DNA of 22,357 nucleotides from a virus. Below the pieces are notes generated by a model. That model did not search any database, was not told the DNA's origin, and saw nothing but the letters and a program-made list of their open reading frames with translations. Below, in pieces: positions 3,269-22,357 of this stretch. Numbering within the stretch: position 1 is the stretch's first letter; every line of letters begins with the position of its first letter. The translations under genes were made by a program, and so were the position numbers. The stretch lies in the IMG/VR virus record IMGVR_UViG_3300035389_000102, positions 1 through 22,357 of that record; one strand, written 5' to 3'.

Positions 3269-3871
3269 CTATTTTCCCTCCATCTCTAAAAGATCCAATT
3301 TCAATTTCATCAACTCGAGCTCAACTGCACTTTCAGTTACACTTGCTCGTGATTCAAATACATCTTGTGCTGACCTTGCCGATGCAACACTCTGCGGATA
3401 TGCCGGAATGGTAACCGGGCACACCTCAAACAGATCAGCTTCAAGAACTGTTCGTACAGCCATCTCCGGATCCGTTTCATCCCATTCTTCCTTTGTTGCA
3501 TGAAAGATAAAGGAACTTCCCCGCACATCCCCGCGCTCGATTGTTTCGATATGTCTTTCCGCCCAAGAAGGTGGATCGATTTCATACCGAAGACCAATCT
3601 CATCTTCAGCAACTGACAAAGTACCAGGCGTTCTACCCAGCACCTCTTCCATTCGATGCTGCCATGTTGCAACAACTTCCTGATTTGATAGCGACTTCTG
3701 AAAAGCACCCTTCCTGAACTGTTCTTGGAACAATCCCCAAATTGGCTTTGATCGCTGATCCCACTTTACAGCGTAACCAACAATCTTTTTCATCTTGCTT
3801 TCTTCAGCTGCACGAAGCTCGACACTTGGTAAAAACACATTGCTCCTTTGTTCTCGTTCCTTGCTATTCAC
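3269..3871 (-). CDS. Prohead protease, HK97 family (S78/U35)
   Basis: An about 200-aa serine protease that cleaves the capsid delta domain during prohead maturation. Family hallmarks are the IVGYAVKWD start of the fold, a WQHRMEEVLGRT segment carrying the catalytic His, a VRGSSFIFHA segment carrying the catalytic Ser, and LFEVCPVTIPAYPQ near the end. I prefer the GTG at 3871, because GGAGG lies eight bases upstream. A GTG at 3880 in the same frame is too close to the ribosome site. With that start it overlaps the portal gene end by 8 bases. It sits directly before the capsid gene, as usual. Confidence 0.93.
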   Translation of the reverse strand: MNSKEREQRSNVFLPSVELRAAEESKMKKIVGYAVKWDQRSKPIWGLFQEQFRKGAFQKSLSNQEVVATWQHRMEEVLGRTPGTLSVAEDEIGLRYEIDPPSWAERHIETIERGDVRGSSFIFHATKEEWDETDPEMAVRTVLEADLFEVCPVTIPAYPQSVASARSAQDVFESRASVTESAVELELMKLKLDLLEMEGK

Positions 3872-5084
3872 TCTTCCCACCTCCCTGAAGAATCTCCTTC
3901 ACCGGTTTCATATTCCCATTGATGAAGTATTCATCCAATCCATCTTGCAGTTCCATGTTCTCTAGCTTCCTCACATCATTCCCACTCATCCAACCATCGT
4001 TAATTGCGAAATGATATCCCTTATATCGCGTGTTAATGTCCCCTCGAAGAAGGCCATCCACATTAAACTCGATTGAATACCGCTTTCTCTCGATCGATGT
4101 CAAAAGAGATCGAACCATCGACTGCTCCCATCGAACCAACCAAGGACGAATCGTGTGTTTCACAAACGAAATGTCCTGATGCTCAATGTTCGAGAAAGTC
4201 GCTTTATCCAATATGCCAATCAAATGCTGCGGTACTCGGTAGATTCGCGCAATTTCTTCAAGCTGAAACTTGCGCGTTTCCAAAAACTGAGCATCCTTTT
4301 GCGGAATCCCAATCTGCTTATACTGCATGCCCTCTTCAAGGATTGCAATTCGATGCGAGTTCTCAAGTCCTTTGTGCATCTCATTCCATGACTCACGTAA
4401 ATTCCCCTGAGCATCCTTCCCTAAAGCCTTTGGATGCTCCAAAACTCCGCCTGGAGTTGCATTGTTCCCAAAGAATCTTGAACCGAATTCTTCAGCTGAC
4501 AACCCAAGGCCAATAGCCTCACGCGCCAATCCAATCGGTGAAATTCCCTGGATCCCATCCAACGTGAGCCCTACCAGGTGCAACACATTTTCAGCCGGCA
4601 AAAGAACCTGCTTCCCATTTGGAATCGAAACCCGGTACCGGATCTTCTTGGTACCCTGCTCCCGTTCCATAACTGTTGTCGACGGATTCAATGGCCAAAG
4701 CGCCTTTGGATATCCATCATTTCCCCATTGGATTTCCGCATATGCATTCCCCCATAAAAGCAGATGCACCTGCATCATTGCCCTGAAGGATGCCGAAGTC
4801 ATTTCTGGATTGGGCTGATCATGCAATAATCCATACAGCGGATGATCCCTGGCCTTAGTGCGAGTGTCTTGGTTCTTCTCATAGAGAAACAACGGTATCG
4901 ATGCAACGGTATCACTGATCACGTTTACACAAGCAAGCACGCCCGAAAAGGTCAATGCATTCCCCTCCGTGACTACTTTACCTGTATAGCTCTGTAATCC
5001 ACCGGTTAAGAAACTTACCATCGAATTCGATGGATTTGCGATCGAATCACCACGCCGCTCTACAAGCTTTCCGAATAACCCCAT
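3864..5084 (-). CDS. Portal protein, HK97 family
   Basis: A 406-aa protein with a portal opening: LTFSGVLACVNVISDTVASIPLF near residues 44-66. It then has DHPLYGLLHDQPNPEMTSASF and the LLLWGNAYAEI segment. Later come the FFGNNATPGGVL and ARIYRVPQHLIGI motifs and WLVRWEQSM, all typical of HK97-type portals. Twelve copies form the DNA entry/exit ring at one capsid vertex and dock TerL. The ribosome site AGGGGGTGAT overlaps the end of the small membrane-protein gene. Length is close to the family norm. Confidence 0.95.
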   Translation of the reverse strand: MGLFGKLVERRGDSIANPSNSMVSFLTGGLQSYTGKVVTEGNALTFSGVLACVNVISDTVASIPLFLYEKNQDTRTKARDHPLYGLLHDQPNPEMTSASFRAMMQVHLLLWGNAYAEIQWGNDGYPKALWPLNPSTTVMEREQGTKKIRYRVSIPNGKQVLLPAENVLHLVGLTLDGIQGISPIGLAREAIGLGLSAEEFGSRFFGNNATPGGVLEHPKALGKDAQGNLRESWNEMHKGLENSHRIAILEEGMQYKQIGIPQKDAQFLETRKFQLEEIARIYRVPQHLIGILDKATFSNIEHQDISFVKHTIRPWLVRWEQSMVRSLLTSIERKRYSIEFNVDGLLRGDINTRYKGYHFAINDGWMSGNDVRKLENMELQDGLDEYFINGNMKPVKEILQGGGKSE

Positions 5085-5091
5085 TTATTTA

Positions 5092-5277
5092 TCACCCCCT
5101 CGCCAAAAGAAAACTAAACCCCATCAACAAAACACCCGCAGCGATAAACGCTGCGGGTATTGATATGAGATGGATCCCATAAATCAGTAGGCTCATGCCC
5201 AATAACAAAAACAGATCATCAAGGTGTTTGATAAAACTCATCCCGATCCGTCTGATCCCTTTTTTCAATTTCATCAT
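5092..5277 (-). CDS. Small two-helix membrane protein between TerL and portal
   Basis: A 61-aa protein with a basic start (MMKLKKGIRR) and two hydrophobic segments, roughly residues 21-38 (DLFLLLGMSLLIYGIHLI) and 41-58 (PAAFIAAGVLLMGFSFLL). It is predicted to span the membrane twice with both ends inside. It overlaps the TerL stop by four bases (ATGA) and ends eight bases before the portal start. Small membrane proteins of unknown role sit between terminase and portal in other Gram-positive phages. Codons for IPAAFIAAGV form a perfect 10-bp hairpin at RNA level. Confidence 0.7.
   Translation of the reverse strand: MMKLKKGIRRIGMSFIKHLDDLFLLLGMSLLIYGIHLISIPAAFIAAGVLLMGFSFLLARG
5134..5158 (-). 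repeat. Perfect 10-bp hairpin upstream of the portal gene
   Basis: ACCCGCAGCG and CGCTGCGGGT are exact inverted copies separated by five bases. On the minus-strand transcript the hairpin is followed by GUGUUUUGUUG, a weak U-rich tail. It lies within the small membrane-protein gene, 50 bases before the portal start. It could be an RNA stability element or a partial terminator. Confidence 0.6.
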
Positions 5278-6962
5278 AGAAATGCAATCCCTCTTTCTGA
5301 ATAAACGCTCCTGGATTCATTCTCATAAGGTCGAAGAATCGCGCGAACATGACTGATCACTGCTGCAACCGCCGGATCAATCCGGTACTGCGCCTTCGAC
5401 TTGTCCAACTTGATATTGCCAGCTGGATCCGAAACCGCAACGGCGTTACTCATTGCCCAGGACAATACCGGATTATTGTTGTGAATGTATATCCCCTTAA
5501 GAACCAACTTGTACAAATCCTTGGTCGGTTCAGACATTGTTTTGTATCCTTGGCGAATCTCAACACAAAGAAAACCCTCGTTGGTCAAGGTGTTGGCCAT
5601 CTGCGTAGCATTCCATGGGTCATAACAAATTTCTTTGATATCCCAAATTTCAGACTTCGTCATAATATACGAAATGATCCAATCATAATCCACTACAGCC
5701 CCGGGAGTGAAGGTCAAATACCCTTGCTTTTCCCATAAACGGTATGGCACTTTATCTCGTTTGATCTTTTCATCCACCTTGTCTTCCGGAATAAAAGAAT
5801 GACTGTGAACGTATACGCGGCCATCCGGAAGCGTAAACTCAAAGTTGATACTCGTGATATCTGTTGTAGCTGAAAGGTCGACCCCAACAATGCAGGGAAG
5901 TTCTTCCAGCTTAAGCGCCTTCACTTCCTCTTCGGTAAGCGTTGGGCACTTACGCCACCTCTCCATATCCATCCAGCGCACTTCACTGTTCACCCAAACA
6001 TTCAGATGCTTGCACAGGAAGTTGTTTTGCGCCGCAGGGATTTCCTTGGCCTTTTTTGCTTTTGCTTCCAGGTCTTCCAGTTTTACTGAAACCCCAAGGT
6101 TCGGATTCGCCTTCGCCCATGTTTCTGGATCCCGCCAATCATCTTCCGGATCCATCTGCGCAATATAAGCAAAATACCGATCATCTTCCATGCCGGCAGT
6201 GTTGTTCAGGATCTTCACCGAGTATTCATACTGCTCATAACAAATACCGTTATGATTAAAGCCGGCCGTTGTGATCGGAAACATCAAAGGTTGCCGCCTT
6301 GCACCGGTTGCTGTTTCAAGTACATCCCACAGCTCCCTTGTCTTATGCGCATGCAACTCATCGATCAATGCAAAGTACACATTCAATCCATCCAGGCTAT
6401 CTGCTTCTGAAGCCAATGGTTCAAACTTGCTGAAGGTATCCGGCACACTCAGGTTTAGCTTATAGACATCAACCATCTTCTTTAGTTCATCGGATGTCAT
6501 AACCATCCGCTTGGCTTCTTCGAAGATGATCTTCGCCTGGTCACGCTTGGTTGCAGCTGAATATATCTCAGCCCGAGCTTCCCCGTCTGCCAGCAAACCA
6601 TAGAGTGCAATGCCGGCAGCCAAAGTAGACTTTCCATTCTTACGAGGCACCTGAACATAAGCCGTCCGGAATCGCCGGATCCCATCAGACTTGCGGACCC
6701 ATCCAAAAACGGATCCAACTACGAAACACTGCCAGAGCTCCAACTCGACTGGACGCCCCGCCCATTCACCAGTGGTGTGCTTCAAGAACGGGAAGAAGTT
6801 AATCGCTCGATCCGCAAGCTCCTTATCAAACTTGTACGGATACTTCTTCCGAATCGACTTCTTCAGGTCTTTCATATGTCGCTTGCATGCCAGCTTAACC
6901 AACTTGTTGGCCGGAATATTGCCGGCTAAGACTTCCCTGGCATACTTGCTTGTTCTATCCAA
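5274..6962 (-). CDS. terL: Terminase large subunit (packaging ATPase/nuclease)
   Basis: A roughly 562-aa TerL of the Terminase_1/YmfN type. Numbered from the preferred start, the ATPase has Walker A VPRKNGKST near residue 105 and Walker B ALIDELH near residue 198. The RNase H-like nuclease half shows acidic residues in GVDLSATTD, CYDPWNATQ and RIDPAVAAV. It powers DNA translocation through the portal and cuts concatemers. The start is uncertain. A TTG at 6962 has AAAGGGTGG at good spacing, whereas a GTG at 6971 abuts that site. It overlaps the TerS end by 8 bases and the downstream membrane gene by 4. Confidence 0.96.
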   Translation of the reverse strand: MDRTSKYAREVLAGNIPANKLVKLACKRHMKDLKKSIRKKYPYKFDKELADRAINFFPFLKHTTGEWAGRPVELELWQCFVVGSVFGWVRKSDGIRRFRTAYVQVPRKNGKSTLAAGIALYGLLADGEARAEIYSAATKRDQAKIIFEEAKRMVMTSDELKKMVDVYKLNLSVPDTFSKFEPLASEADSLDGLNVYFALIDELHAHKTRELWDVLETATGARRQPLMFPITTAGFNHNGICYEQYEYSVKILNNTAGMEDDRYFAYIAQMDPEDDWRDPETWAKANPNLGVSVKLEDLEAKAKKAKEIPAAQNNFLCKHLNVWVNSEVRWMDMERWRKCPTLTEEEVKALKLEELPCIVGVDLSATTDITSINFEFTLPDGRVYVHSHSFIPEDKVDEKIKRDKVPYRLWEKQGYLTFTPGAVVDYDWIISYIMTKSEIWDIKEICYDPWNATQMANTLTNEGFLCVEIRQGYKTMSEPTKDLYKLVLKGIYIHNNNPVLSWAMSNAVAVSDPAGNIKLDKSKAQYRIDPAVAAVISHVRAILRPYENESRSVYSERGIAFL

Positions 6963-7449
6963 CTCGACCACCCTTTATGAAACTAGCAAAAGGACTCTCC
7001 ATTTTCTCCGCCTGCTCCATTGTCAGCGATGTTCTGGAGCTTGGAGTCAAACCAAACTCCTTGCAAAAACTCACCATCAACTTCATTGCAGTGTTAGCAA
7101 TCCCAACTTCAGGTCGCTGAATGACATTCCCTTTGTCAGATTTGTAAGTCATGCCAAATTCTCTAACTTTCTTCTCTGCCTGCACCCAGCGAGAGAAGTT
7201 CGCGCAGTATGCAGCCAATGCTGCTTCGTCCGCTTTGGTCAATAGCCCAGCTTTATGGAGGATCGGTGCGATCCGCTTCCACTCCTTCTTGGCCAAGCTG
7301 TCTAAATGGGTTGGCGGCTTGATCGTTCCTCTCGCATCCAACTCATATTTTTCAAATGTCGGCTCATTTTTATTCAGGGCACGCTTTCCAGGGTTCCCTT
7401 GAAGCTCTTTCAGAGCCGTTGGCTTCGCTTTTCTTCCAGGTTGTCCCAT
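6955..7449 (-). CDS. terS: Terminase small subunit, P27 family
   Basis: A 164-aa protein starting MGQPGRKAKPTALKELQGNP, the standard start of P27-type small terminase subunits (GxxGRkpkPtalk.l.GNPGkR). It then has PPTHLDSLAKKEWKRIAPIL and a C-terminal LMVSFCKEFGLTPSSRTSL, both family hallmarks. TerS recognises the packaging site and regulates TerL. The ATG at 7449 is chosen because AGGAGGGG lies five bases upstream. A longer in-frame start at 7500 lacks a ribosome site and would run into the inverted repeat that may belong to the packaging site. Confidence 0.95.
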   Translation of the reverse strand: MGQPGRKAKPTALKELQGNPGKRALNKNEPTFEKYELDARGTIKPPTHLDSLAKKEWKRIAPILHKAGLLTKADEAALAAYCANFSRWVQAEKKVREFGMTYKSDKGNVIQRPEVGIANTAMKLMVSFCKEFGLTPSSRTSLTMEQAEKMESPFASFIKGGRVG

Positions 7450-7496
7450 CGATACCCCTCCTATTCTAATTCGCGGGCACGTTTCTGAAGGCTCAC

Positions 7497-7522
7497 CCAA
7501 CGGTCCTATCCGGAACCGTTGG
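7497..7522. other. Candidate cos/packaging-site inverted repeat
   Basis: CCAACGGT and ACCGTTGG are exact 8-base inverted copies around a 10-base centre containing TCCGGA. A run of six C (7534-7539) lies on one side. The segment falls in the roughly 90-bp gap between the HNH gene and terS. In many Gram-positive cos phages the cohesive-end site lies here. The assignment is positional and structural only. Confidence 0.45.
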
Positions 7523-7542
7523 AGAGATTCAGACCCCCCTAC

Positions 7543-7911
7543 CTATCTACCGAAACCACCGTCCTCGGTTGCAGTCTTAACGTTGTGGCATTCCTCACAG
7601 AGCGGTTGCCAGTTACTCACATCCCAGAACAAGCCTGGATCACCCTTATGAGGGATGATGTGGTCAACAACTGTCGCCTGTCGAACGATTCCAATGGCTG
7701 CACACCGAGCACATAGTGGATTCCGTAATAAAAAAGACCTTCGAGCTTTGCGCCAACGATGATCATATCCTCGCTGACTTGCCGATGGTCTTTGTTTATC
7801 CTTTTGTCGTTTTACCTTTTTCTTTTCTGCCTTGTGTTCCTCACAATAATAGCCTGAAGTGAGGTTCTTACACCCTATCTTGGCACATGGTTTCAATGAT
7901 CTGTTTGCCAT
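7543..7911 (-). CDS. HNH endonuclease next to the terminase
   Basis: A 122-aa HNH nuclease. The C-terminal core reads VVDHIIPHKGDPGLFWDVSNWQ then PLCEECHN, giving the DH, N and HN residues of the family. Structural cysteines lie in CARC and CEEC, so it is a zinc-containing HNH. An extra N-terminal Cys pair-rich stretch (CAKIGCKN...YYCEEH) is followed by a basic region. HNH proteins encoded beside terS in HK97-type phages stimulate terminase cutting at cos sites. This one lies exactly there, supporting a cos packaging mode. The ribosome site is GAGGTGAT with long spacing or AGGA with short spacing. Confidence 0.92.
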   Translation of the reverse strand: MANRSLKPCAKIGCKNLTSGYYCEEHKAEKKKVKRQKDKQRPSASQRGYDHRWRKARRSFLLRNPLCARCAAIGIVRQATVVDHIIPHKGDPGLFWDVSNWQPLCEECHNVKTATEDGGFGR

Positions 7912-7955
7912 TTTCCTAAAATCACCTCTTCAATCATAGGACAGCCCGCATGGTT

Positions 7956-8044
7956 ACTGGGGTTGAATGTGTTTTCCTAACACCTATTTGAGTTTCTCGT
8001 ATCTAAGGAATTGTTAAATTCATTAAAAAGTATTCAACCCCAGT
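7956..8044. repeat. 13-bp perfect inverted repeat flanking 63 bp
   Basis: ACTGGGGTTGAAT (7956-7968) and ATTCAACCCCAGT (8032-8044) are exact inverted copies separated by 63 bases. They lie in the 221-bp gap between the tyrosine recombinase gene and the HNH gene, which otherwise contains no gene longer than a 14-codon leader. They may be recombinase or regulator sites, or form a long-range RNA stem ahead of the late operon. Confidence 0.7.
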
Positions 8045-8047
8045 CAT
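8003..8047 (-). CDS. Possible 14-codon leader peptide before the late operon
   Basis: A short open frame encodes MTGVEYFLMNLTIP, starting at ATG 8047, with AGGAGG (8060-8065) twelve bases upstream, and ending in TAG. Its codons 2-6 form one arm of the 13-bp inverted repeat, so its translation could affect RNA folding upstream of the HNH and terS genes. The ribosome-site spacing is rather long. It is listed only as a possibility. Confidence 0.25.
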   Translation of the reverse strand: MTGVEYFLMNLTIP

Positions 8048-8079
8048 ATCAACGGCTTTCCTCCTGTCGTAAAATCACA

Positions 8080-8107
8080 GTTTAACAACCTACTCATTTT
8101 GTTAAAC
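8080..8107. repeat. 9-bp inverted repeat GTTTAACAA/TTGTTAAAC
   Basis: GTTTAACAA (8080-8088) and TTGTTAAAC (8099-8107) are exact inverted copies with a 10-base spacer, just after the recombinase stop. A third near-copy, TTGTTAAAT, is at 8011-8019 inside the larger 13-bp repeat pair. The set resembles clustered protein-binding sites. Confidence 0.6.
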
Positions 8108-8132
8108 CAAACAGAAAAAAATATAAAACAGA

Positions 8133-8684
8133 TCAATATCTAAAGCTTTTCAACTTCCTGTCGATATAGTCCTGTTCCACACCAATGTACTCCAATGTTT
8201 GCAATTCGGTTGCATGGCCATAGATCTTCATCAGGATCGGTAAAGCATTCTTCTCGCCACACTGCAAATAGAAATGGTACCCAAATGTTTTCCGCATACT
8301 GTGCGTACTCAAATGAATACCAAACTGTTCGCCTGCTTTCGTAATAACCTGATAAGCGCGTTGCCTGCTGATCGCTCGATTGTAGTTCTCCCTCGACCTG
8401 ACCAGATAGTCTTCATTATCTTTCTCTGCAACATACTTGGCAATCTCTCGCCTTAGTTCCGGATTGACAATGATCTTCCGGATGTTCCCTGTCTTCTGCT
8501 CGGTTACCATAAAGTAGTCTTGGTCCCTAACATCCGACACCTTCAGCTTCAGTATGTCACTGATCCGCAGTCCGGAATAGATCCCCAGCATGAAGAGAAT
8601 GTAGTCCCGATCACACTGCATCTTCAAATATTCAGTTATGTCTTTCAGTACCCGCTTATCGCGGATTGGATTTGCTGCTGCCAT
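8133..8684 (-). CDS. Short tyrosine recombinase (catalytic domain only)
   Basis: A 183-aa tyrosine recombinase. All catalytic positions are visible: Arg40 in SGLRISDILKLK, Lys64 in EQKTGN, His128-x2-Arg131 in THSMRKTFGYHF, His157 in YGHATELQT and the nucleophile Tyr166 in TLEYIG. It lacks the arm-binding and most of the core-binding domains of phage integrases. Its size is near that of FimB/FimE invertases and XerH-like proteins. Similar short recombinases occur just upstream of the packaging genes in other Gram-positive phages. The ribosome site GAGGTGGAATA-ATG follows directly on a terminator (8698-8726), so expression needs read-through or regulation. The substrate is unknown; nearby inverted repeats are candidates. 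Confidence 0.9.
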   Translation of the reverse strand: MAAANPIRDKRVLKDITEYLKMQCDRDYILFMLGIYSGLRISDILKLKVSDVRDQDYFMVTEQKTGNIRKIIVNPELRREIAKYVAEKDNEDYLVRSRENYNRAISRQRAYQVITKAGEQFGIHLSTHSMRKTFGYHFYLQCGEKNALPILMKIYGHATELQTLEYIGVEQDYIDRKLKSFRY

Positions 8685-8697
8685 TATTCCACCTCAC

Positions 8698-8726
8698 AAA
8701 AAAGAGAACCGCTCTAGGCAATTCTC
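8698..8726 (-). terminator. Intrinsic terminator of the XRE-ImmA-PIN cassette
   Basis: On the minus strand GAGAATTGC and GCGGTTCTC pair (nine pairs, two G-U) around a five-base loop and are followed by six T. It lies about 50 bases after the PIN-like stop and ends 10 bases before the ribosome site of the recombinase gene. A perfect -10 hexamer (TATAAT, rc 8736-8741) lies just upstream of the hairpin. Confidence 0.8.
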
Positions 8727-8775
8727 CTTGATACCATTATATTCCCCAAATACAGCACGTAGTGTTCGTTTATTG

Positions 8776-9378
8776 TTAGAACCTTATATCTAATGTCTTA
8801 GCAATTCCCAATTCTTTAAACTCAGCAATTCTCTCTTCCCGTCTCCGACTAAAACTTTTTGCGGATGCTCGTCCTCTCGAATTATTCAGTTTATTATACT
8901 TGGCTTCTGCAATTTCATAATCCATATGACCTTTAGCAACAAGTATTATCAACAAATCATAATAAGCTAGAGGTATCGAATAATCTTTGAATAAGTAGAA
9001 CTCCGTGTCATTATTACTCACTACTATTGGTGGGGATGCTATTGCTACAGCAAGTGCAATACAATGTCTTTCACCAAGTCCACAGACATCAAATGCGCTC
9101 ATTACGTTTTTTTTGCTTATCTTTTCCGCAAGATCTAAATCCTTGTCATACACGACTTTAAAAGCATCGTTATTTGCAAGAACATCTAAGCAAGCTCCTA
9201 AATGACGCCCAGCCTTATTCCTAATTTCAACACGCTTGACATACTCAGGAACTAGTATTTTCTCTGCAAACATTTCAAGTAGCTCGATTTCATCATTTCG
9301 GATCAAATGCAAAAAAATATCTGTATCGCATATTACTTGCTCAAATTTTTCATACTGTCTTCGGGGGTAAATAGCCAT
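8776..9378 (-). CDS. PIN-like domain protein, putative RNase toxin
   Basis: About 200 aa from ATG 9378, behind AGGTGATT. A longer in-frame ATG at 9408 is less well placed. PIN-fold features include QVICDTDIFLHL near residues 14-25 (first acidic Asp18), CGLGERHCIALAVAIA near 99-114 (Glu103, the usual xGExxxIxLA turn) and VVSNNDTEF near 119-127. PIN proteins are metal-dependent RNases and often toxins. It overlaps the ImmA/IrrE gene end by about 29 bases and is last in a cassette with an XRE regulator. XRE-ImmA/IrrE-PIN combinations are known as toxin-antitoxin-like modules. Activity here is not demonstrated. The basic C-terminus (RRREER) might bind RNA. Confidence 0.8.
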   Translation of the reverse strand: MAIYPRRQYEKFEQVICDTDIFLHLIRNDEIELLEMFAEKILVPEYVKRVEIRNKAGRHLGACLDVLANNDAFKVVYDKDLDLAEKISKKNVMSAFDVCGLGERHCIALAVAIASPPIVVSNNDTEFYLFKDYSIPLAYYDLLIILVAKGHMDYEIAEAKYNKLNNSRGRASAKSFSRRREERIAEFKELGIAKTLDIRF

Positions 9379-10114
9379 AATCACCTGGGTCCTTTCCGAT
9401 GAATTCAAGTAGTTCTTGCAACAACGAATATGAAATCAAACCTTGCTCAAAATTCTCACGTGTTTTTTGAATCCATTCTTCTGAAACATGATTTCGTCCA
9501 GACGGTTTAATAAGCGAAACATCAAACCCTTCACGTTCAGTTAGTTTTACTAGCTTCTCATGATTTTCCAAAGTACCCATTTCACGTAATTCATCGTATT
9601 TTTCAGGAGCACATAATCCTATTTTTACTAAACGCTTTAGCATAGCTTTATAGCTCACTCTGAATTTATTGTGCATTCTTACAATATGCCTAGGCTCTAC
9701 TTCACTCGGATTTACACTTGGCGCCAGTTTATAAAACTGTTTTTTTACGCTTTGTTCTGGCATTAAGAAGAGTGATGCAAACACATTTGCCTTTTCTTCA
9801 TTTTCTTCATCTGCTTCGAGTACTTCGCCAGTCATTAACTTATGATGATCTTGAACTAAATGGTAATACTCATGCGCTGCTGTATAAATCTGGTGTCCCA
9901 ATGTATAGTTGGTATTAATTATCACAATAAATTCATCATGGTAATAAGTAGAAAATCCTGATATTTTTTTACTTTCAAATGGATAAAGTACAAGAATTGC
10001 ATTTTCCTCGATCACATCAAAAATATCTAAAAACATATCAGATGCAATTTTACTGCGTTCTTGTGCTGCCAATATTTCAAGATCGTTTTCTATCTCTAAA
10101 TCAATTTTAAACAC
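9350..10114 (-). CDS. ImmA/IrrE-family metallopeptidase
   Basis: A 254-aa protein with the HEYYH zinc motif at residues 81-85. A downstream EEKANVFASLFLMP segment (about 106-119) supplies the third metal ligand and the family's ANxFAxxLLMP signature. Such peptidases (COG2856/DUF955) cleave partner repressors, as ImmA cleaves ImmR in ICEBs1. The C-terminal ~100 residues form an uncharacterised extension. It starts with GTG at 10114 behind GAGGTGAT, seven bases after the XRE stop. It overlaps the PIN-like gene, so the three genes are co-translated. The likely substrate is the adjacent XRE protein, perhaps also the prophage repressor (inference). Confidence 0.9.
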   Translation of the reverse strand: MFKIDLEIENDLEILAAQERSKIASDMFLDIFDVIEENAILVLYPFESKKISGFSTYYHDEFIVIINTNYTLGHQIYTAAHEYYHLVQDHHKLMTGEVLEADEENEEKANVFASLFLMPEQSVKKQFYKLAPSVNPSEVEPRHIVRMHNKFRVSYKAMLKRLVKIGLCAPEKYDELREMGTLENHEKLVKLTEREGFDVSLIKPSGRNHVSEEWIQKTRENFEQGLISYSLLQELLEFIGKDPGDYGYLPPKTV

Positions 10115-10120
10115 TAGATA

Positions 10121-10492
10121 TCACCTCTTCCATGCTGGATACTTTGGTTCAGCTTTCGCTCTTATATTCTTTTGATTAATAAAACTTTTTAGAACTTCCT
10201 CAACATAATAAATTTCATCAAGTACCAAATCACCTTCGCTAATCTCAAATCTTTTACGGAACACTTCGGTCATTTCTTCATCTTCTTCAAAAAAATCATT
10301 CAAATCACTTTTTAAAGCTTTCGCAATTGCTTTCAACTCGATTGCGCTTAAGACACGTTGATCTGTTTCAATTTTACTTAAAGCGACTCGAGATAACTCA
10401 ATACCATCCTTTGCTATCAAATCACATAACTGTGATTGAGTATAATTCAGCGCCATTCTTTTTTCTTGTATACGCCCACCTATTTCTCCCAT
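10121..10492 (-). CDS. XRE-family regulator of the ImmA-PIN cassette
   Basis: A 123-aa protein with an N-terminal helix-turn-helix of the Cro/CI type: RIQEKRMALNYTQSQLCDLI, then ELSRVALSKIETDQR as the recognition helix region, residues ~7-60. The acidic C-terminal part (FFEEDEEMTEVFRKRF) probably mediates dimerisation or contact with the peptidase. It is first in the cassette, with an AAGGAGGG ribosome site and a good promoter. A dyad, ATACT-8-AGTAT, overlaps the -10. Autorepression through that dyad and relief by ImmA/IrrE cleavage is the expected circuit; this is inferred from related systems. Confidence 0.88.
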   Translation of the reverse strand: MGEIGGRIQEKRMALNYTQSQLCDLIAKDGIELSRVALSKIETDQRVLSAIELKAIAKALKSDLNDFFEEDEEMTEVFRKRFEISEGDLVLDEIYYVEEVLKSFINQKNIRAKAEPKYPAWKR

Positions 10493-10515
10493 CTTTGTTC
10501 CCTCCTTGTAACTTA

Positions 10516-10544
10516 ATACTACACCATCAGTATTTTTTTATCAA
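10516..10544 (-). promoter_or_regulatory. Promoter and operator of the XRE-ImmA-PIN cassette
   Basis: On the minus strand, TTGATA (rc 10539-10544) and TAGTAT (rc 10516-10521) are separated by exactly 17 bases. An inverted repeat, ATACT-8-AGTAT (10516-10533), covers the -10, as expected for an autoregulated XRE gene. The promoter overlaps the last codons and stop of the late-regulator gene. Confidence 0.7.
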
Positions 10545-10974
10545 CTTTTTGCAATAAATGTTCCTTTTTAGAACATTGTCGGATATATCCATAACTATAT
10601 CCTAAATCCTCAGCAATTTCTTTCAAAGATTTTCCTTCGATCACTCTCTTATAAACAATCTTATATTCAATCCCGTCCATATTGCTAATTCGAACTTCCA
10701 TAGCTTTCTGGCACTCTTTGACTTTATCAAGCAACAACTGATATTTCTCAATATCCTTCTCCAATGCTGCAATATGTGGCAGTTGCTCCGTCATATCCAA
10801 CTTACAATGATTCTCCTGAACTCTCGGTTTTGAATAGTCAATTCCAGAAACATCGCCAATCGGCTTCAACCACCCATCCACAATCGCATCCTTCTGGGCG
10901 ATGAGTGACTCAAGCCGCATTTCATATATTTCAATCTCTCTGCATAGATCCTGATAACATTTCACAAACTCCAT
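10519..10974 (-). CDS. Sigma-like/ArpU-type late transcription regulator
   Basis: A 151-aa protein with a helical, coiled-coil-like N-terminal two thirds. Its C-terminal HTH reads YKRVIEGKSLKEIAEDLGYS then YGYIRQCSKK, resembling sigma-70 region 4 and the DUF1492/ArpU phage regulators. Genes of this type sit at the end of the early region and switch on packaging and structural genes. The start at 10974 is chosen because AGGGGAGA lies in front. A longer frame to 11007 would begin inside a terminator. The packaging genes lie downstream beyond the inserted cassette. Confidence 0.75.
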   Translation of the reverse strand: MEFVKCYQDLCREIEIYEMRLESLIAQKDAIVDGWLKPIGDVSGIDYSKPRVQENHCKLDMTEQLPHIAALEKDIEKYQLLLDKVKECQKAMEVRISNMDGIEYKIVYKRVIEGKSLKEIAEDLGYSYGYIRQCSKKEHLLQKVDKKILMV

Positions 10975-17602: not shown

Positions 17603-17749
17603 CTATGAATACGTCGAAGCCCAGAAGCCGCACGTTTCATCAACATCAATGACCTGCTTCGCCTTCGGACTTAATAAATTCCTGCAATGATCATCCTCTT
17701 GATCTCTCCACTTGCAGAATCCACAAATTCGCTCATCGCTAACACTCAT
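17603..17749 (-). CDS. Small Cys4 protein, 48 aa
   Basis: A 48-aa protein starting MSVSDERICGFCKWRDQEDD with AAGGAGAAAAA as ribosome site. Cysteines at 9, 12, 22 and 42 (CGFC, HC, TCGFW) suit one zinc site; the spacing is like small phage proteins of the C-x2-C-x9-C type. The start overlaps the stop of the double zinc-ribbon gene (ATGA). It forms the third of three adjacent Cys-rich genes. Confidence 0.7.
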   Translation of the reverse strand: MSVSDERICGFCKWRDQEDDHCRNLLSPKAKQVIDVDETCGFWASTYS

Positions 17750-18180
17750 TTTTTCTCCTTTAAATTATCCACACGACTCTTTGATAACTCCCTGCCGCAT
17801 CCCGCACAATATTCATCAGTACTTAAACCGATGTATCCACACGAACACGTCTGAGTGCTTACACTCATTTGATGGCCGCAACTTGAGCAGAATTTAGCAG
17901 TTGAACTCACATCAGAATGGCACGCTGGACATTCTTCCATCCTCAATGAATACCAATCAATTTCATTGGCTCTGATTCTTTTGAATTCATCATCAATCCA
18001 TTCATTTAACTTCGCCACCTCTTGCTTGTAGCCCTCAACTAGCACAAGTGCAGCTTCTCTTTCCTCTCGTTTCATTTCCGATAGGTTGTGAATCAGATCC
18101 TCTGCACAACGTATGGTTTCGGATCGATTACGACAAAGTCGATCTAGCGTTTCATTAGTCTTTACGTCTCTTCGTTTCAA
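17746..18180 (-). CDS. Double zinc-ribbon protein with helical N-terminus
   Basis: About 144 aa from a TTG at 18180. AAAGGAG lies in front and the TTGA overlaps the previous stop. A frame extending to 18237 would lie inside the neighbour without a ribosome site. The N-terminal ~85 residues are helical (ALVLVEGYKQEVAKLNEWID). The C-terminal part holds two zinc ribbons: ECPACHSD...FCSSCGHQ and TCSCGYIG...YCAGCGRE. Such double ribbons (DZANK-like) bind nucleic acid or proteins. Function in the phage is unknown; its position right after cro suggests an immediate-early regulator or host-takeover protein. Confidence 0.75.
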   Translation of the reverse strand: MKRRDVKTNETLDRLCRNRSETIRCAEDLIHNLSEMKREEREAALVLVEGYKQEVAKLNEWIDDEFKRIRANEIDWYSLRMEECPACHSDVSSTAKFCSSCGHQMSVSTQTCSCGYIGLSTDEYCAGCGRELSKSRVDNLKEKK

Positions 18181-18335
18181 GAGTTTTCTCTCCTTTCGAT
18201 CATCCACACAACAACTGGATCTAATAGTAATCCGCAACGCATGCAGCGCGTGTCACCCTGCTGGATCTCACAATGGCAGCGGGGACAGTTCTGTAATTCC
18301 TGGTGCTTTGCATCGATGCGACTGAAATTAGCCAT
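18177..18335 (-). CDS. Small zinc-ribbon protein, 52 aa
   Basis: From ATG 18335 (MANFSRIDAKHQELQNCPRC), with AGGAAG nine bases upstream, overlapping the Cro-like stop by 8 bases. One zinc ribbon is visible: CPRCHCEIQQGDTRCMRCG. The following VVVWMIERRENS is a short helix. An in-frame ATG at 18371 is possible but lies well inside the Cro-like gene. First of three consecutive zinc-binding genes in the earliest transcript. Confidence 0.65.
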   Translation of the reverse strand: MANFSRIDAKHQELQNCPRCHCEIQQGDTRCMRCGLLLDPVVVWMIERRENS

Positions 18336-18579: not shown

Positions 18580-18623
18580 GGTATTTTCTCCTTTCGATCC
18601 ATTAATTATGTACTTCAATTACA

Positions 18624-18652
18624 AATATAGTCCATTAATAATGGATTGTCAA
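18624..18652 (-). promoter_or_regulatory. Early (PR-like) promoter
   Basis: On the minus strand TTGACA (rc 18647-18652), a 17-base spacer and TATATT (rc 18624-18629) form a near-consensus sigma-A promoter reading toward the Cro-like gene. The spacer is almost completely occupied by the palindrome at 18631-18645, so a bound repressor would block RNA polymerase. Confidence 0.85.
18631..18645. promoter_or_regulatory. Operator palindrome 1
   Basis: TCCATTA-A-TAATGGA, a perfect 15-bp palindrome inside the spacer of the early promoter. Related half-sites (TCCATTAAT at 18593-18601 and GTCCATG near 18709) lie on both sides. Confidence 0.8.
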
Positions 18653-18670
18653 CTATTTTTTCTATTCTTA

Positions 18671-18683
18671 GTGGATTATCCAC
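18671..18683. promoter_or_regulatory. Operator palindrome 2
   Basis: GTGGAT-T-ATCCAC, a perfect 13-bp palindrome sharing the TGGAT/ATCCA core with operator 1, placed between the two divergent promoters. It is flanked by a wider dyad, CTTAGTG (18667-18673) and CACTAAG (18697-18703). Confidence 0.75.
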
Positions 18684-18724
18684 GATTTTCCTATTTCACT
18701 AAGGAAAGTCCATGTATTTTTGAC

Positions 18725-18730
18725 TATAAT
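18725..18730 (+). promoter_or_regulatory. -10 element of the repressor promoter
   Basis: TATAAT is perfect and 24 bases before the ATG, but no good -35 is found at 16-18 bases upstream. A weak -35 is usual for repressor-maintenance promoters that depend on activation by bound repressor. Confidence 0.5.
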
Positions 18731-18753
18731 TATAGACATGGTAGGTGATTAAT

Positions 18754-19065
18754 ATGGATTTTCAAGATAGATTGAAAAACGAGCGGAAGCGCGTTGGATT
18801 AACACAAGATGAGTTTGGAAAGAAATTCAGCCTCTCAAAACAAGCCATCTCTTCATATGAGAATGGTATTAGTTATCCTAATCCAGATAGTCTAAAAGCC
18901 TTTGCAAAATTTTTTGATGTTTCAGTAGATTATCTCCTGGGAGAAACAAACGTGAGGCACCAGCACGATGTCCTCGCCTTCCACACCACTGAAGATCTCA
19001 CCGAAGAAGAATGGGAAGAAGTAAAACAATACATAGACTTCATTAGAAGCAAAAGAGACGACTAA
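18754..19065 (+). CDS. Prophage repressor, XRE/CI-like, without peptidase domain
   Basis: A 103-aa protein from ATG 18754 (AGGTGA five bases upstream; a GTG at 18745 overlaps that site). The HTH is clear: RLKNERKRVGLTQDEFGKKF, SLSKQAISSYENG, then FAKFFDVSVDYLLGE. The C-terminus (LTEEEWEEVKQYIDFIRSK) is a short helix, not a LexA/CI self-cleavage domain. Derepression must therefore come from another route, such as ImmA/IrrE cleavage or an antirepressor. It faces the Cro-like gene across the operators and is followed at once by a terminator. Confidence 0.9.
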   Translation: MDFQDRLKNERKRVGLTQDEFGKKFSLSKQAISSYENGISYPNPDSLKAFAKFFDVSVDYLLGETNVRHQHDVLAFHTTEDLTEEEWEEVKQYIDFIRSKRDD

Positions 19066-19092
19066 GAGCACAGGGAGACCTGTGCTCTTTTG
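19064..19092 (+). terminator. Terminator of the repressor gene
   Basis: AAGAGCACAGG and CCTGTGCTCTT pair perfectly around a GAGA tetraloop, followed by T residues (four in a row including the stem end). It begins at the repressor stop codon. It separates repressor transcription from the accessory operon at 19164. Confidence 0.85.
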
Positions 19093-19163
19093 ATGTAAAC
19101 AAATATATCGATAGATTTCCCAATACTTAGGAAAACGTTTAGAATTTTTGAAAGGAGTTATCT

Positions 19164-19967
19164 ATGAATGCAACAAATGAAATAAAAACAGAGGTGAAAA
19201 ACCTCTATCTCCACGGAAGGGCTTTGCTGTTCCTCGAAACCGTCAAAAAAGAACAGATTACTGAAGAACAGCTTGGAAATGTCGCTAAATCAAGCATTTA
19301 TCAGGATTTAAAAGAACACGGTGATATTTTAATTAACGAGTATCAAACATGGTATTTCAAAAGTCTGAGAGTGGTGAAACAACTCGCCCCTGAAAGACTA
19401 TCCGAATTTATTAATCTATACAAACCTCATAAAGAACCTAAGTCAATCGACTATTCCACGTATTCTATCTATGACTATTTGAACAATTTACAAGTAACAA
19501 AAGCGAGTGGGAGAATTGTAGATTCATATTCGGCATTTTCATCAAAATTTCTAAATCAGCTGGGGATTGTCAACTCAATACATACCACAATTGATAGTCT
19601 GATTATTGATATCGAAGGCACAATTCAAAGTGCATTCTTTGATTCGGAAATAAAGGTTGCTGAAGATCTATTAATGAAAAAACACCTCCGAGCAAGTGGA
19701 GCCATATGTGGAGTCGTGTTAGAAAATCACTTCGCCTCGGTATGTGAAAATCATGAGATTAAATTCCGAAAAAAGAATCCAACAATTGATGATTATAACA
19801 ATGAGTTGAAAACCAACAAATTAATTGACATACCAGTATGGAGACATATTCAACACCTTGGAGATATCAGGAATTTATGCGTTCATAAAAAGGACCGTGA
19901 TCCGGAACCTGATGAAATTGAAGATTTGATTCGAGGATGTAAGAAACTCATTGCAGAGCTATACTAA
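19164..19967 (+). CDS. HEPN-motif protein, putative RNase (accessory operon gene 1)
   Basis: A 267-aa protein with GAAAGGAG in front. The N-terminal ~150 residues are helical and not recognised. The C-terminal ~105 residues look like a HEPN/DUF4145-type helical bundle: LMKKHLRASGAICGVVLENH, then HLGDIRNLCVHKKDRDPEPD and DLIRGCKKLI. Arg236-x4-His241 in RNLCVH is the Rx4-6H signature of HEPN ribonucleases, with Asn in the second position as usual. HEPN proteins are frequent toxins in abortive-infection systems. First gene of a four-gene unit; AT-rich relative to the phage genes. The assignment is by motif. Confidence 0.72.
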   Translation: MNATNEIKTEVKNLYLHGRALLFLETVKKEQITEEQLGNVAKSSIYQDLKEHGDILINEYQTWYFKSLRVVKQLAPERLSEFINLYKPHKEPKSIDYSTYSIYDYLNNLQVTKASGRIVDSYSAFSSKFLNQLGIVNSIHTTIDSLIIDIEGTIQSAFFDSEIKVAEDLLMKKHLRASGAICGVVLENHFASVCENHEIKFRKKNPTIDDYNNELKTNKLIDIPVWRHIQHLGDIRNLCVHKKDRDPEPDEIEDLIRGCKKLIAELY

Positions 19968-19995
19968 TGAAGTATGGAGTTAATGGAGGCTTGTT

Positions 19996-21009
19996 ATGAA
20001 CTGGAAAGAATACGAAAAAGAAACCCATGAATATTTCGAAACAAAATATCCAAATGCAACAATCAAATACAATGTAAAACTTGATGGGAGAAAATCAAAA
20101 ACTAAAAGACAAGTTGATATTCTGATCGAAGAAATAGTTTGCGGATACATGATACGAATGGCAATTGAATGTAAGAACTGGTCTCAACCCTTAGATGTAG
20201 CAGATGTTGGTAGCTTTATCTACACGCTGGAAGATATCGGCGTTGATAGAGGGATTATGGTCAGTAGATCAGGTTATTCAGAAGCTGCAAAAAATCTATC
20301 ATATGAACATACAAACTTGAACTTACATGTTTTGAAATTTGATGAACTCGAATTATTTCACGGCTTCTATGGGGTCCCTTATCGTGGTAGATTTGGTGCA
20401 ATTGTAACTCCACCCAATGGGTGGATATTGCAAAGTAAAGTTCCTAAAGAAATGAAAACATCATTCATTTGCTCAATGTATCCAATGGAACATAACTTTG
20501 ATTCCGCATTGGACACACCAAGTATTATTTTCTTCGATATACCCGAATTCCCATCAGAGAAAGAACATAACACCTGCAAACTTATTGACACATTTATTCA
20601 ACGCCTTGAAAAAAGCACCTACTCCTTCGATGAAAAGGCTGAAGTTGAATATTTCGATGAACAGTTTAATGGAAAGCAAATTAAATTAAGAATTACTAAA
20701 TACTATATATTTGATTATGTAGAAACCGCAATAATCACTTGCGTTGGTAATTTCTTAATACATATTTTCGGAGCACATAAAGCAAGAGATCAAGAAGATT
20801 TTATAACTCATGCAAAGTATATTCTTAACTCAATAATTCCGATCGAATTACCTGTCGTTGTGTTGCCAACAAATTCAGATCGAGAATGGGCTAAATACAT
20901 GGCAAGTCAGCCAGGCACAACACAGTTTGTTTCTCATAGTTCAGATAAAGATGGGAATAGCGTTGTTAAGATTTACCAGAAACTCCCCTCTGAGGATTCA
21001 GAAAAATAA
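19996..21009 (+). CDS. Mrr-like PD-(D/E)xK endonuclease (accessory operon gene 2)
   Basis: A 337-aa protein. The N-terminal ~120 residues carry a restriction-endonuclease fold: RQVDILIEE (Asp41), AIECKNWSQPLDVADVGSFI (Glu58-x-Lys60) and GVDRGIMVSRSGYSEAAKNL, typical of the Mrr catalytic domain. The remaining ~200 residues are an unrecognised, beta-rich domain (SIIFFDIPEFPSEKE, AIITCVGNFLIHIFG) that could sense a ligand or target. Mrr-like nucleases attack modified or foreign DNA. It lies 28 bases after the HEPN gene, with TGGAGG in front. Confidence 0.82.
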   Translation: MNWKEYEKETHEYFETKYPNATIKYNVKLDGRKSKTKRQVDILIEEIVCGYMIRMAIECKNWSQPLDVADVGSFIYTLEDIGVDRGIMVSRSGYSEAAKNLSYEHTNLNLHVLKFDELELFHGFYGVPYRGRFGAIVTPPNGWILQSKVPKEMKTSFICSMYPMEHNFDSALDTPSIIFFDIPEFPSEKEHNTCKLIDTFIQRLEKSTYSFDEKAEVEYFDEQFNGKQIKLRITKYYIFDYVETAIITCVGNFLIHIFGAHKARDQEDFITHAKYILNSIIPIELPVVVLPTNSDREWAKYMASQPGTTQFVSHSSDKDGNSVVKIYQKLPSEDSEK

Positions 21010-21042
21010 GCACAGATAGAATAATTTACATAGGAGAGAATC

Positions 21043-21741
21043 ATGAAATACGAAATTTATTGTGACGAAAGCTGCCATGTAATGAATGATGGATTCAACA
21101 CAATGGCGATTGGCGGAGTATTCTTTCCCGCCGAAATGAGAGAAGAAATTAAGAAAGAGATTCGCAATTTAAAAATGAAACACGGGATCAAATCTTCTAC
21201 AGAGATCAAGTGGACTAAAGTCTCAGAAAACAAATTTGATTTTTACTCAGAACTTATTGAGTATTTCTTTTCCAAAGAAAATCTTGGATTCAGGGTCATC
21301 GTAGTGAAAAATAAAAAAAGCCTTGATCATGAAAAATACCATCAGACTCACAATTCATTCTACAGTAAAATGTATTATCTACTGTTATCTCGAAAACATT
21401 TCGGTAGATCATTTGATGCCTTCTTTGATGTTAAAGATACTCATGGCGGTCCCAGAATAAGCAAAATGAAGAAATACTTATTAAATCAAAATACCGGTAT
21501 TGGATTGACAGAGCAAATCAATTCAAGTGATTCCGATATTCTGCAGCTTGCCGATGTACTTGTAGGTGCAGTTACTTATTACCATCGCTATATAGATAAA
21601 CCAAAGACTGAAAACAAGAACGCAAAAAAGAAAATTGTAAATCAAATATTCAACCATGGTGTTAACTTTGCAAAAAAAACCAATCCTCAAGAAAGTAAAT
21701 TTAATCTTTTTATCTGGGAGCCGAACTATGGACACAATTAA
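21043..21741 (+). CDS. DUF3800 protein, RNase H-like (accessory operon gene 3)
   Basis: A 232-aa DUF3800 protein. Family positions are visible: YCDESC with Asp8 near the N-terminus, GGVFFP, EIKW (Glu54), FDAFFDVKDT (Asp125/129) and SDILQLADVLVGAVTYYHR (Asp171). Together they form the acidic set of an RNase H-like active site. Members are predicted nucleases, common in mobile elements and near defence genes; biochemical function is largely unknown. It starts 33 bases after the Mrr-like gene with TAGGAGAG, and overlaps the next gene by 14 bases. Confidence 0.85.
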   Translation: MKYEIYCDESCHVMNDGFNTMAIGGVFFPAEMREEIKKEIRNLKMKHGIKSSTEIKWTKVSENKFDFYSELIEYFFSKENLGFRVIVVKNKKSLDHEKYHQTHNSFYSKMYYLLLSRKHFGRSFDAFFDVKDTHGGPRISKMKKYLLNQNTGIGLTEQINSSDSDILQLADVLVGAVTYYHRYIDKPKTENKNAKKKIVNQIFNHGVNFAKKTNPQESKFNLFIWEPNYGHN

Positions 21742-22357
21742 AAACATTAATCCAAAAAAATATCTCGAATCAAAACATAAAGAATTTATACAACTGATTC
21801 CGCAAGACTGCGATATTTATTTGTATGATAATAAAGTTAACTTCAAACTAGATCCCGTACTTCATCGGGGTATTGAAATGGCTAATGATTTCCTTCACAT
21901 TTCTAGCCTTTCGCCCAAAGACTATAATTCCGAGTATATGTTTTGCTCTAATACAGCTTTCCCTTTTGCATGTGAAAATCCCCATGAGTTCTATCTATCA
22001 GGGAAAAAAAGATACGAATGTTTGTATCGAGCAAACAAGAGTGCCATGGCGATAGATCTGATCAATAAAGCAAATAATCTTCGAGAAAACTCTAATATCA
22101 AGGTATGGAGAGTTCGTGAAGATACTCGTCTTATTAACACCTATATAAGATACACTGATAAATCAGAATATGAAGACTTCATTGTTATTCTACGAGAGAA
22201 ATTTGTTAAAAAGACATTTGAAACTAAATGGTACTATTTTGTCACAGCTTATCCAATATTTATGAAGAGATCGAAAGACGAATTTGATAAATCCTATGAC
22301 CGCTATTTTAAATCAATCGGGCGTGGCCGCACGCTATATGATAAAATTGAGCAATAA
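21728..22357 (+). CDS. Unrecognised 209-aa protein (accessory operon gene 4)
   Basis: From ATG 21728 behind GGGAG; the frame opens upstream to 21656 but lacks a ribosome site there. It ends with TAA exactly at the window edge, so it is complete. Residues ~1-100 are of mixed structure with several Cys. The C-terminal part, KVWRVREDTRLINTYIRYT, then KKTFETKWYYFVTAYPIF and DEFDKSYDRYF, has a beta-strand pattern ending in TAYP. That recalls BECR-fold RNases (RelE/EndoU/colicin-type), but this is only a resemblance. Overlap with the DUF3800 gene implies a functional pair. Confidence 0.7.
   Translation: MDTIKNINPKKYLESKHKEFIQLIPQDCDIYLYDNKVNFKLDPVLHRGIEMANDFLHISSLSPKDYNSEYMFCSNTAFPFACENPHEFYLSGKKRYECLYRANKSAMAIDLINKANNLRENSNIKVWRVREDTRLINTYIRYTDKSEYEDFIVILREKFVKKTFETKWYYFVTAYPIFMKRSKDEFDKSYDRYFKSIGRGRTLYDKIEQ

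Follow-up and report, generated by a model that had tools for sequence, protein, structure and literature searches.

Whether genes that lie together in one compact operon also work together is the question raised by the right end of the IMG/VR virus record IMGVR_UViG_3300035389_000102, where four closely packed genes follow a repressor-like gene. The window, by which is meant the whole stretch of DNA analysed, is the complete record of 22,357 bases. A sequence-only reading of this DNA had assigned the four genes to a single sense-then-kill defence system, a set held to be without described precedent. The four open reading frames (ORFs), their coordinates and the residues named in them are confirmed on the plus strand, as follows:

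19164..19967, plus strand: gene 1, HEPN-type protein of 267 amino acids (R236-x4-H241, family profiles, model)
19996..21009, plus strand: gene 2, protein of 337 amino acids with a Mrr catalytic domain at the N-terminus (Pfam Mrr_cat; D41, E58, K60)
21043..21741, plus strand: gene 3, DUF3800 protein RlfA or PDC-M04A, 232 amino acids (Pfam DUF3800, PADLOC PDC-M04A)
21728..22357, plus strand: gene 4, RlfB or PDC-M04B, 209 amino acids, predicted BECR-type RNase (PADLOC PDC-M04B; H57, R101, T173)

The genes are real and their motifs are correct; it is the unit that was wrongly drawn. With a little more confidence than doubt, the locus is explained as a prophage cargo operon of three independent modules, in which the last two genes, RlfAB, would constitute a toxic RNA-cutting unit that is triggered by phage and protects the prophage. 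As a candidate kind, PDC-M04/RlfAB is already known; what is new here is the prediction that RlfB is a BECR-type RNase.

The separation into modules is seen in the gene neighbourhoods. A profile was built for each gene and searched against all ORFs of the fetched loci, with the window copy excluded from the counts. Among 118 other loci of the gene 1 family (7 viral, 68 genome, 40 later viral and three plasmid loci, L002, L003 and L006, near-duplicate contigs included), 96 of which have at least 3 kb of downstream sequence, nothing related to genes 2-4 was found near gene 1 even at E<=1. Relatives of gene 1 or 2 are likewise found near gene 3 in none of 48 other loci, 44 of them with at least 2.2 kb of upstream sequence, and the view from gene 2 is provided by only two other loci with wide flanks. 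A gene 4 relative, by comparison, is present in 45 of the 48 gene 3 loci, and in 44 it follows gene 3 at a distance of no more than 60 bases; counted by distinct sequence, the pairing holds in 30 of 33. Exceptions to the close pairing are L036, which has a distant partial match, and L052-L054, in which gene 3 is truncated. In the loci sampled, gene 1 is unlinked to genes 2-4, genes 3-4 are unlinked to genes 1-2, and genes 3 and 4 are a strongly linked pair. The sequence-only reading had itself named homologues that never co-occur as the finding that would speak against it. This is what is seen for gene 1 against genes 2-4 and for genes 3-4 against genes 1-2, and therefore the four-gene set fails by its own standard, whereas the pair of genes 3 and 4 (44/48) does not.

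The linked pair has a well-known relative in phage P1. Gene 3 matches Pfam DUF3800 with 47.2 bits (4.9e-12; cut-off 21), and its acidic residues are invariant in the rows that cover them (D8 38/38, E54 38/38, D129 36/36, D171 36/36), so that by its family it is classed as an RNase H-type nuclease. In the available parts of the respective papers, RlfA is credited with an RNase H fold (PMC3710099), and modelling assigns such a fold, with a catalytic rearrangement, to DUF3800 (PMC10910872). In PADLOC, gene 3 matches PDC-M04A at 4.9e-73 and the adjacent gene 4 matches PDC-M04B at 4.1e-24. The P1 proteins RlfA and RlfB match the same two models at 1e-95 and 1.3e-51, and PDC-M04 and RlfAB are therefore one family. 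Gene 3 shares about 38-39% identity with P1 RlfA along 97% of its length. Between gene 4 and P1 RlfB direct BLASTP gave no significant match, their kinship being established through profiles and through an alignment with RlfB homologues, in which gene 4 appears as a long and divergent member, 209 amino acids in length and 14-24% identical to 23 others. Alignment A5 drew on 23 of the 45 viral gene 3 loci, leaving out near-duplicates, truncated loci and a few with unclear starts. The window shares with P1 the order of the genes, rlfB after rlfA, and differs in their surroundings: the P1 pair adjoins repL behind a C1-controlled operator, whereas the window pair lies downstream of a repressor-like gene and has two extra nuclease genes, HEPN and Mrr, in front. 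The phrase PDC-M04 was not found in the literature searched, and the portions available of that literature yielded no anti-phage assay of PDC-M04 or RlfAB, which is accordingly termed a candidate defence pair.

The neighbours of RlfAB elsewhere point to a role in genetic conflict. Defence genes, either type I restriction or Shedu, lie beside the pair in 5 of 14 gene 3 loci that were scanned. L048 displays the order HsdM-HsdS-RlfA-RlfB-HsdR (2863-10634), HsdS is directly upstream of RlfAB in L033 and L046, HsdR and a YgjP-like gene are upstream in L047, and the Shedu gene SduA is directly upstream in L049. An integrase is located within 0.5 kb of RlfAB in four of the scanned loci, L027, L028, L037 and L040. 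Because of these restriction, Shedu and integrase neighbours a conflict or defence role is preferred over one in replication, and in this respect the sequence-only reading, which favoured such a role, is likely to have been right. The same HsdS-HsdR slot of type I restriction operons is occupied by RlfAB in L048 and by a gene of the gene 1 HEPN family in L069 (1449-9664).

The predicted activity of RlfB comes from its conserved residues and a structural model. Three positions are nearly invariant in the family, H57 (35/35 covered rows), R101 (35/36) and T173 (35/35); their counterparts in P1 RlfB, read from the alignment, are H58, R75 and T131. In the model of gene 4, which has a predicted local distance difference test score (pLDDT) of 87.5, T173 is located in strand 166-177, which closes a run of four consecutive strands. 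The helix pair that directly precedes this run (99-115) holds R101, and a short helix nearer the N-terminus (53-58) holds H57. The BECR active site is described as a Ser or Thr in strand 4 together with a His, or in one PBECR family an Arg, in the N-terminal helix (PMC5512222 section 19). In the model T173 would fit this pattern well, with the helix residue supplied by R101 or, less surely, by H57. Profile comparison with hhalign gives a specific though weak link, in that RlfB matches PBECR2 with a probability of 40-42% (pairwise P ~3e-4) over a stretch that holds both R101 and T173. Seven other families (those of genes 1, 2 and 3, PBECR1, ParE, SnoaL and PemK) reach no more than 1.9%, and a reversed-profile control 0.1-0.4%. 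The first PBECR2 profile used those 13 of 23 loci that passed a coarse pattern filter; the second comparison used 18 of 23 PBECR2, 26 of 30 ParE, 22 of 30 SnoaL (23 given) and 18 of 28 PemK loci (21 given), truncated loci or frames with stops having been dropped. Pfam PBECR2 is matched at 8e-4 by one of 24 RlfB members. RlfB resembles the PBECR domains of PMC5512222 in its last-strand Thr and, less surely, in the conserved His and Arg of preceding helices, and differs from them in that another helix than that of H57 adjoins the sheet and in being a stand-alone protein paired with RlfA instead of a part of a large injected polyvalent protein. From sequence and model together, the identification of RlfB as a BECR-type RNase is somewhat better founded than its denial, and the sequence-only reading, in suggesting a possible further nuclease in gene 4, is to the same degree probably correct. 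No statement that RlfB is a BECR protein was found in the portions of the literature searched; RlfB and DUF3800 do not appear in PMC5512222, nor DUF3800 in PMC11980606. The candidate assignment of gene 4 to HEPN proteins resembling pEK499_p136 was dropped, its conserved columns having no R-x4-H and its C-terminal part being mainly strands, in a comparison that did not include the pEK499_p136 family's own profile.

Taken together, the preferred explanation would run as follows. The operon is read in the direction of the repressor gene and is probably expressed in lysogeny. It would carry a solo HEPN RNase-type gene, a gene for a Mrr-like DNA nuclease and, as a two-gene module, RlfAB (PDC-M04), of which RlfA (DUF3800) would be a metal-dependent RNase H-type nuclease and RlfB, by its predicted fold and activity, a metal-independent BECR-type RNase. 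Their genes are closely spaced or overlapping, and the two proteins most likely form one toxic RNA-cutting unit, putatively a complex, which would be kept inactive until triggered by a competing phage and would then halt translation and so protect the prophage. The HEPN protein would act as a separate dormancy-type RNase, and the Mrr protein may restrict foreign DNA. A more specific version, in which RlfAB is a two-RNase module for abortive anti-phage defence or inter-prophage exclusion, a cassette that inhabits both prophages and the HsdS-HsdR slot (L048) also used by the gene 1 HEPN family (L069), is put forward tentatively and is rather more doubtful than probable.

A number of results weigh against this explanation or parts of it, and the argument for a BECR assignment is an indirect one. 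H57 belongs to an earlier helix than the one adjoining the sheet and falls outside the hhalign match, which makes its BECR role unsure and counts slightly against both the BECR prediction and the exclusion module. RlfB shows no hhalign match to PBECR1 (0.3%, with two sequences only) or to ParE (0.1%), a test in which the PBECR2 profile likewise matches neither. The gene 4 protein itself matched no Pfam family, and a separate Pfam scan found PBECR in none of ten RlfB members at E<=0.01. A search for PBECR4 led no further (0 of 100 genomes). By structure, the best VIA match to gene 4 is chain A of 7vd7, a toxin-antitoxin complex of which that chain may be either partner, and its Z of 5.2 (root-mean-square deviation (rmsd) 4.3 over 94 residues) is weak and of a size that common arrangements also reach; for a HigB2-HigA2 chain Z is 3.1. 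Foldseek returned nothing at E<=0.001 for gene 4 against the PDB and viral models, and among the 50 PDB matches listed NTF2-like or small designed folds, not BECR, predominate. Sequence searches of solved structures gave a best E of 0.021, to an unrelated protein. The 14 loci of the neighbour scan were chosen mostly for long neighbouring ORFs, a bias in the count of defence genes. As to the separation of modules, the gene 2 profile, built from three proteins, would overlook Mrr genes of greater divergence in the vicinity of gene 1 or 3, and near RlfA only the HEPN family of gene 1 was sought and not other HEPN families. Expression in lysogeny finds little encouragement upstream of gene 1, where the promoter search gave a single weak match (19117-19145); the stretch as a whole has fewer promoter matches (9) than shuffled sequence (16.2). 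In P1, finally, the annotated C1-controlled operator Orlf (L007:3818-3834) precedes rlfA, which would be a lytic-phase gene there, and this annotation suggests lytic rather than lysogenic expression of rlfA in that phage.

The operator gives substance to the main rival, namely that RlfAB is a regulatory RNase pair of lytic phage growth comparable to RegB and has no part in defence. In P1 the pair not only adjoins repL behind Orlf but is also annotated as possibly associated with lytic replication, and RegB, which cleaves early phage mRNA, is itself a precedent, being by PMC5512222 (section 19) a BECR-fold phage RNase. A lytic role is nevertheless considered unlikely. According to the available parts of three papers, P1 rlfA and rlfB are among the nonessential genes (PMC10695390), rlfAB is one of the variable low-GC (guanine-plus-cytosine) regions of P1-like elements (PMC9603915), and some P1-like plasmids have lost it or carry other DNA in its place (PMC6906374); the window copy, moreover, lies on the repressor side, and restriction or Shedu genes adjoin the pair in the five loci described above. 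Two small overlapping or adjoining genes on a mobile element, one of them encoding a BECR-type candidate toxin, would suit an ordinary toxin-antitoxin (addiction) pair, with one protein neutralizing the other and any defence being incidental. This possibility, too, is regarded as unlikely, since RlfA has invariant acidic residues of its own (D8, E54, D129 and D171) that a plain antitoxin would not need, and neither gene 3 nor gene 4 matches a DNA-binding family in Pfam or PHROG.

Two further explanations would extend the functional unit beyond RlfAB. A working partnership of gene 1 with genes 3-4 would follow the proposal made for HEPN-NamA, in which multiple cuts made in the same RNAs by several RNases defeat phage RNA repair. 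HEPN genes adjoining NamA/RlfA-type RNase H genes were discussed, and multiple cuts argued for, in 2013, as the accessible part of PMC3710099 relates, and the window resembles those neighbourhoods in that a single stretch contains both a HEPN gene and an RNase H-fold gene of RlfA type; to this extent, and by the cataloguing of genes 3-4 as PDC-M04, the lack of precedent claimed in the sequence-only reading is only partly upheld. The window differs from them in its two other genes and in the HEPN family of gene 1, which has no link to RlfA in 118 loci (a count confined to that HEPN family), and such a partnership is judged improbable. Most inclusive is the coordinated four-gene defence system, with HEPN and RNase H proteins directed at RNA, Mrr at DNA and gene 4 as partner or sensor. 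Its appeal lies in the layout, a common strand with shared low GC content, with gaps of 28 bases between genes 1 and 2 and 33 between genes 2 and 3, an overlap of 14 bases between genes 3 and 4, and good ribosome sites, purine-rich by eye, ahead of each start (AAAGGAG, GGAGG, AGGAGA and GGGAG for genes 1-4), all much as had been described. Against the layout stand the 0/118 gene 1 loci and 0/48 gene 3 loci with relatives of the remaining genes, and the fact that P1 and the other loci have genes 3-4 paired but lack the remaining two, and a single four-gene system is accordingly very improbable.

On the preferred explanation, that of three independent modules, the apparent novelty of four genes is turned into a testable statement on a model phage, namely that P1 rlfA-rlfB is the candidate defence pair PDC-M04 and that RlfB carries residues which are candidates for an RNase active site, a statement open to checking in laboratory E. 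coli with P1 material that already exists. The locus further exemplifies how unrelated nuclease modules can stack in the same prophage and restriction-operon slots, and it serves as a warning that a compact operon is not always one system.

The first of these modules, gene 1, comprises a helical N-terminal part and, in the model, a C-terminal HEPN domain at about residues 148-267. Pfam returns only sub-threshold matches for the protein itself (DUF4145, E=0.16), and at E<=0.1 HEPN is matched by 12 of 40 family members and DUF4145 by 10 of 40. R236 and H241 are invariant in all 72 rows that cover them in an alignment of 82 rows, and an R-x4-H-type motif is found close to the C-terminus of 40 of 40 additional viral members. 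The AlphaFold2 model has a pLDDT of 92.5, and its residues 148-267 superpose on 2hsb with a Z of 14.1 and an rmsd of 2.5 over 116 residues; many entries titled as HEPN-domain proteins rank below 2hsb, as do entries for Csm6, MntA-HepT and AbiV, which count as HEPN by family. Foldseek gives HEPN a probability of 1.00, but with E values of 0.056 or worse. By sequence and model, gene 1 is a HEPN superfamily protein of the RNase type, in agreement with the sequence-only reading. No PADLOC model is matched by gene 1 or by four other members of its family, and when viral contigs were scanned with the single sequences of genes 1, 2 and 4, relatives were found for none of the three.

By record title, the genomes with members of the gene 1 family range from Pseudomonadota and Bacteroidota to candidate phyla and archaea; archaeal relatives are L074, L089, L123, L125 and L127, titled Methanophagales, Methanosarcinales, Methanoculleus and Halorientalis. 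Alignment A6 used 39 of 75 gene 1 loci. The neighbours of gene 1 are variable, the commonest neighbour cluster, integrase-like by eye, occurring in 6 of 78 loci. Type I restriction genes are found near gene 1 relatives in 4 of 78 loci and near none of those in the 40 later viral loci. In L069 the gene 1 relative lies between HsdS and HsdR.

Gene 2 matches Pfam Mrr_cat with 33.3 bits (5.6e-8; cut-off 21) and bears the motif D41, E58, K60 (D-x16-E-x-K), in which D41 and K60 are kept in 3 of 3 distinct aligned proteins and E58 in two, the third having Asp. On this sequence evidence it is a Mrr or PD-(D/E)xK-type nuclease, as had been recognized. It shares the above-threshold Mrr_cat match and the motif with Mrr-type restriction nucleases and differs from them in a C-terminal part that has no family assignment. 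Few relatives extend well past the Mrr domain: among the matches listed (20 of 46 plasmid records) are a Sulfuricurvum gene, 32.5% identical over residues 1-196, and an E. coli plasmid gene, 27.8% over 20-231. A set of 299 genomes yielded one such relative, the best there, with 42% identity over residues 1-149; its gene stands alone in its 3.4-kb locus with an ORF that is ABC-transporter-like by eye. In 25 genomes that carry gene 1, gene 2 is matched in two, weakly and in the Mrr domain alone, and a viral scan with the gene 2 alignment gave one locus, matched in the Mrr domain only. A longer relative of 465 amino acids (L134:1501-2898) has a C-terminal part that by eye resembles TPR-type repeats, unlike gene 2.

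The phage context of the operon is defined by two features immediately upstream:

18745..19065, plus strand: HTH_3 repressor-like gene (Pfam HTH_3 4.7e-15; PHROG transcriptional regulator 8e-24)
19064..19089, plus strand: terminator-like hairpin between the repressor gene and the operon (11-bp stem, -19.6 kcal/mol)

The hairpin has a z of -5.6, with 0 of 200 shuffles equally good, and is absent from the output of a simple terminator scan; the position behind the repressor gene, on which the sequence-only reading relied, is borne out. Low GC content, to which it also drew attention, holds as a contrast with the phage core (0.34-0.36 in the operon against 0.44-0.49 in the first 8 kb) and fails as a distinguishing mark, since the stretch at 9-11 kb is equally low (0.35-0.36). 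At the far end, the last base of the record is the last base of the gene 4 stop codon, and four genes is consequently a lower bound; the right end has probably been trimmed or truncated, and the operon may continue with further cargo beyond position 22357. The internal ATG at 21728 is the best start for gene 4, whose mechanical ORF begins at 21656. No further ORF of at least 300 amino acids is listed in the window, and therefore no full-length integrase. An Rfam search of 18600-22357 for a DUF3800-type structured RNA near the operon gave five sub-threshold matches at E<=5, none of them to a DUF3800 family, and such an RNA was rejected for want of signal.

DNA-level similarity searches against phages gave no useful lead. 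At the protein level, 9 of 10 proteins scanned from the first 16 kb match phage families, comprising head-tail adaptor, major head protein, protease, portal, terminase, a regulator or protease family, a family of unknown function, replication initiation and HNH. For terminase, identities are 41-44% among the matches listed (12 of 2,390 phage records), which include Geobacillus, Paenibacillus, Marinobacter and Escherichia phages. An early-region protein encoded on the minus strand at 17746-18237 has a double zinc ribbon (Pfam DZR 2e-9). Also on the minus strand, at 9353-10114, within the low-GC stretch and distant from the repressor, is a protein that matches phrog_2439 and phrog_87, the PHROG transcriptional regulator and metallo-protease families.

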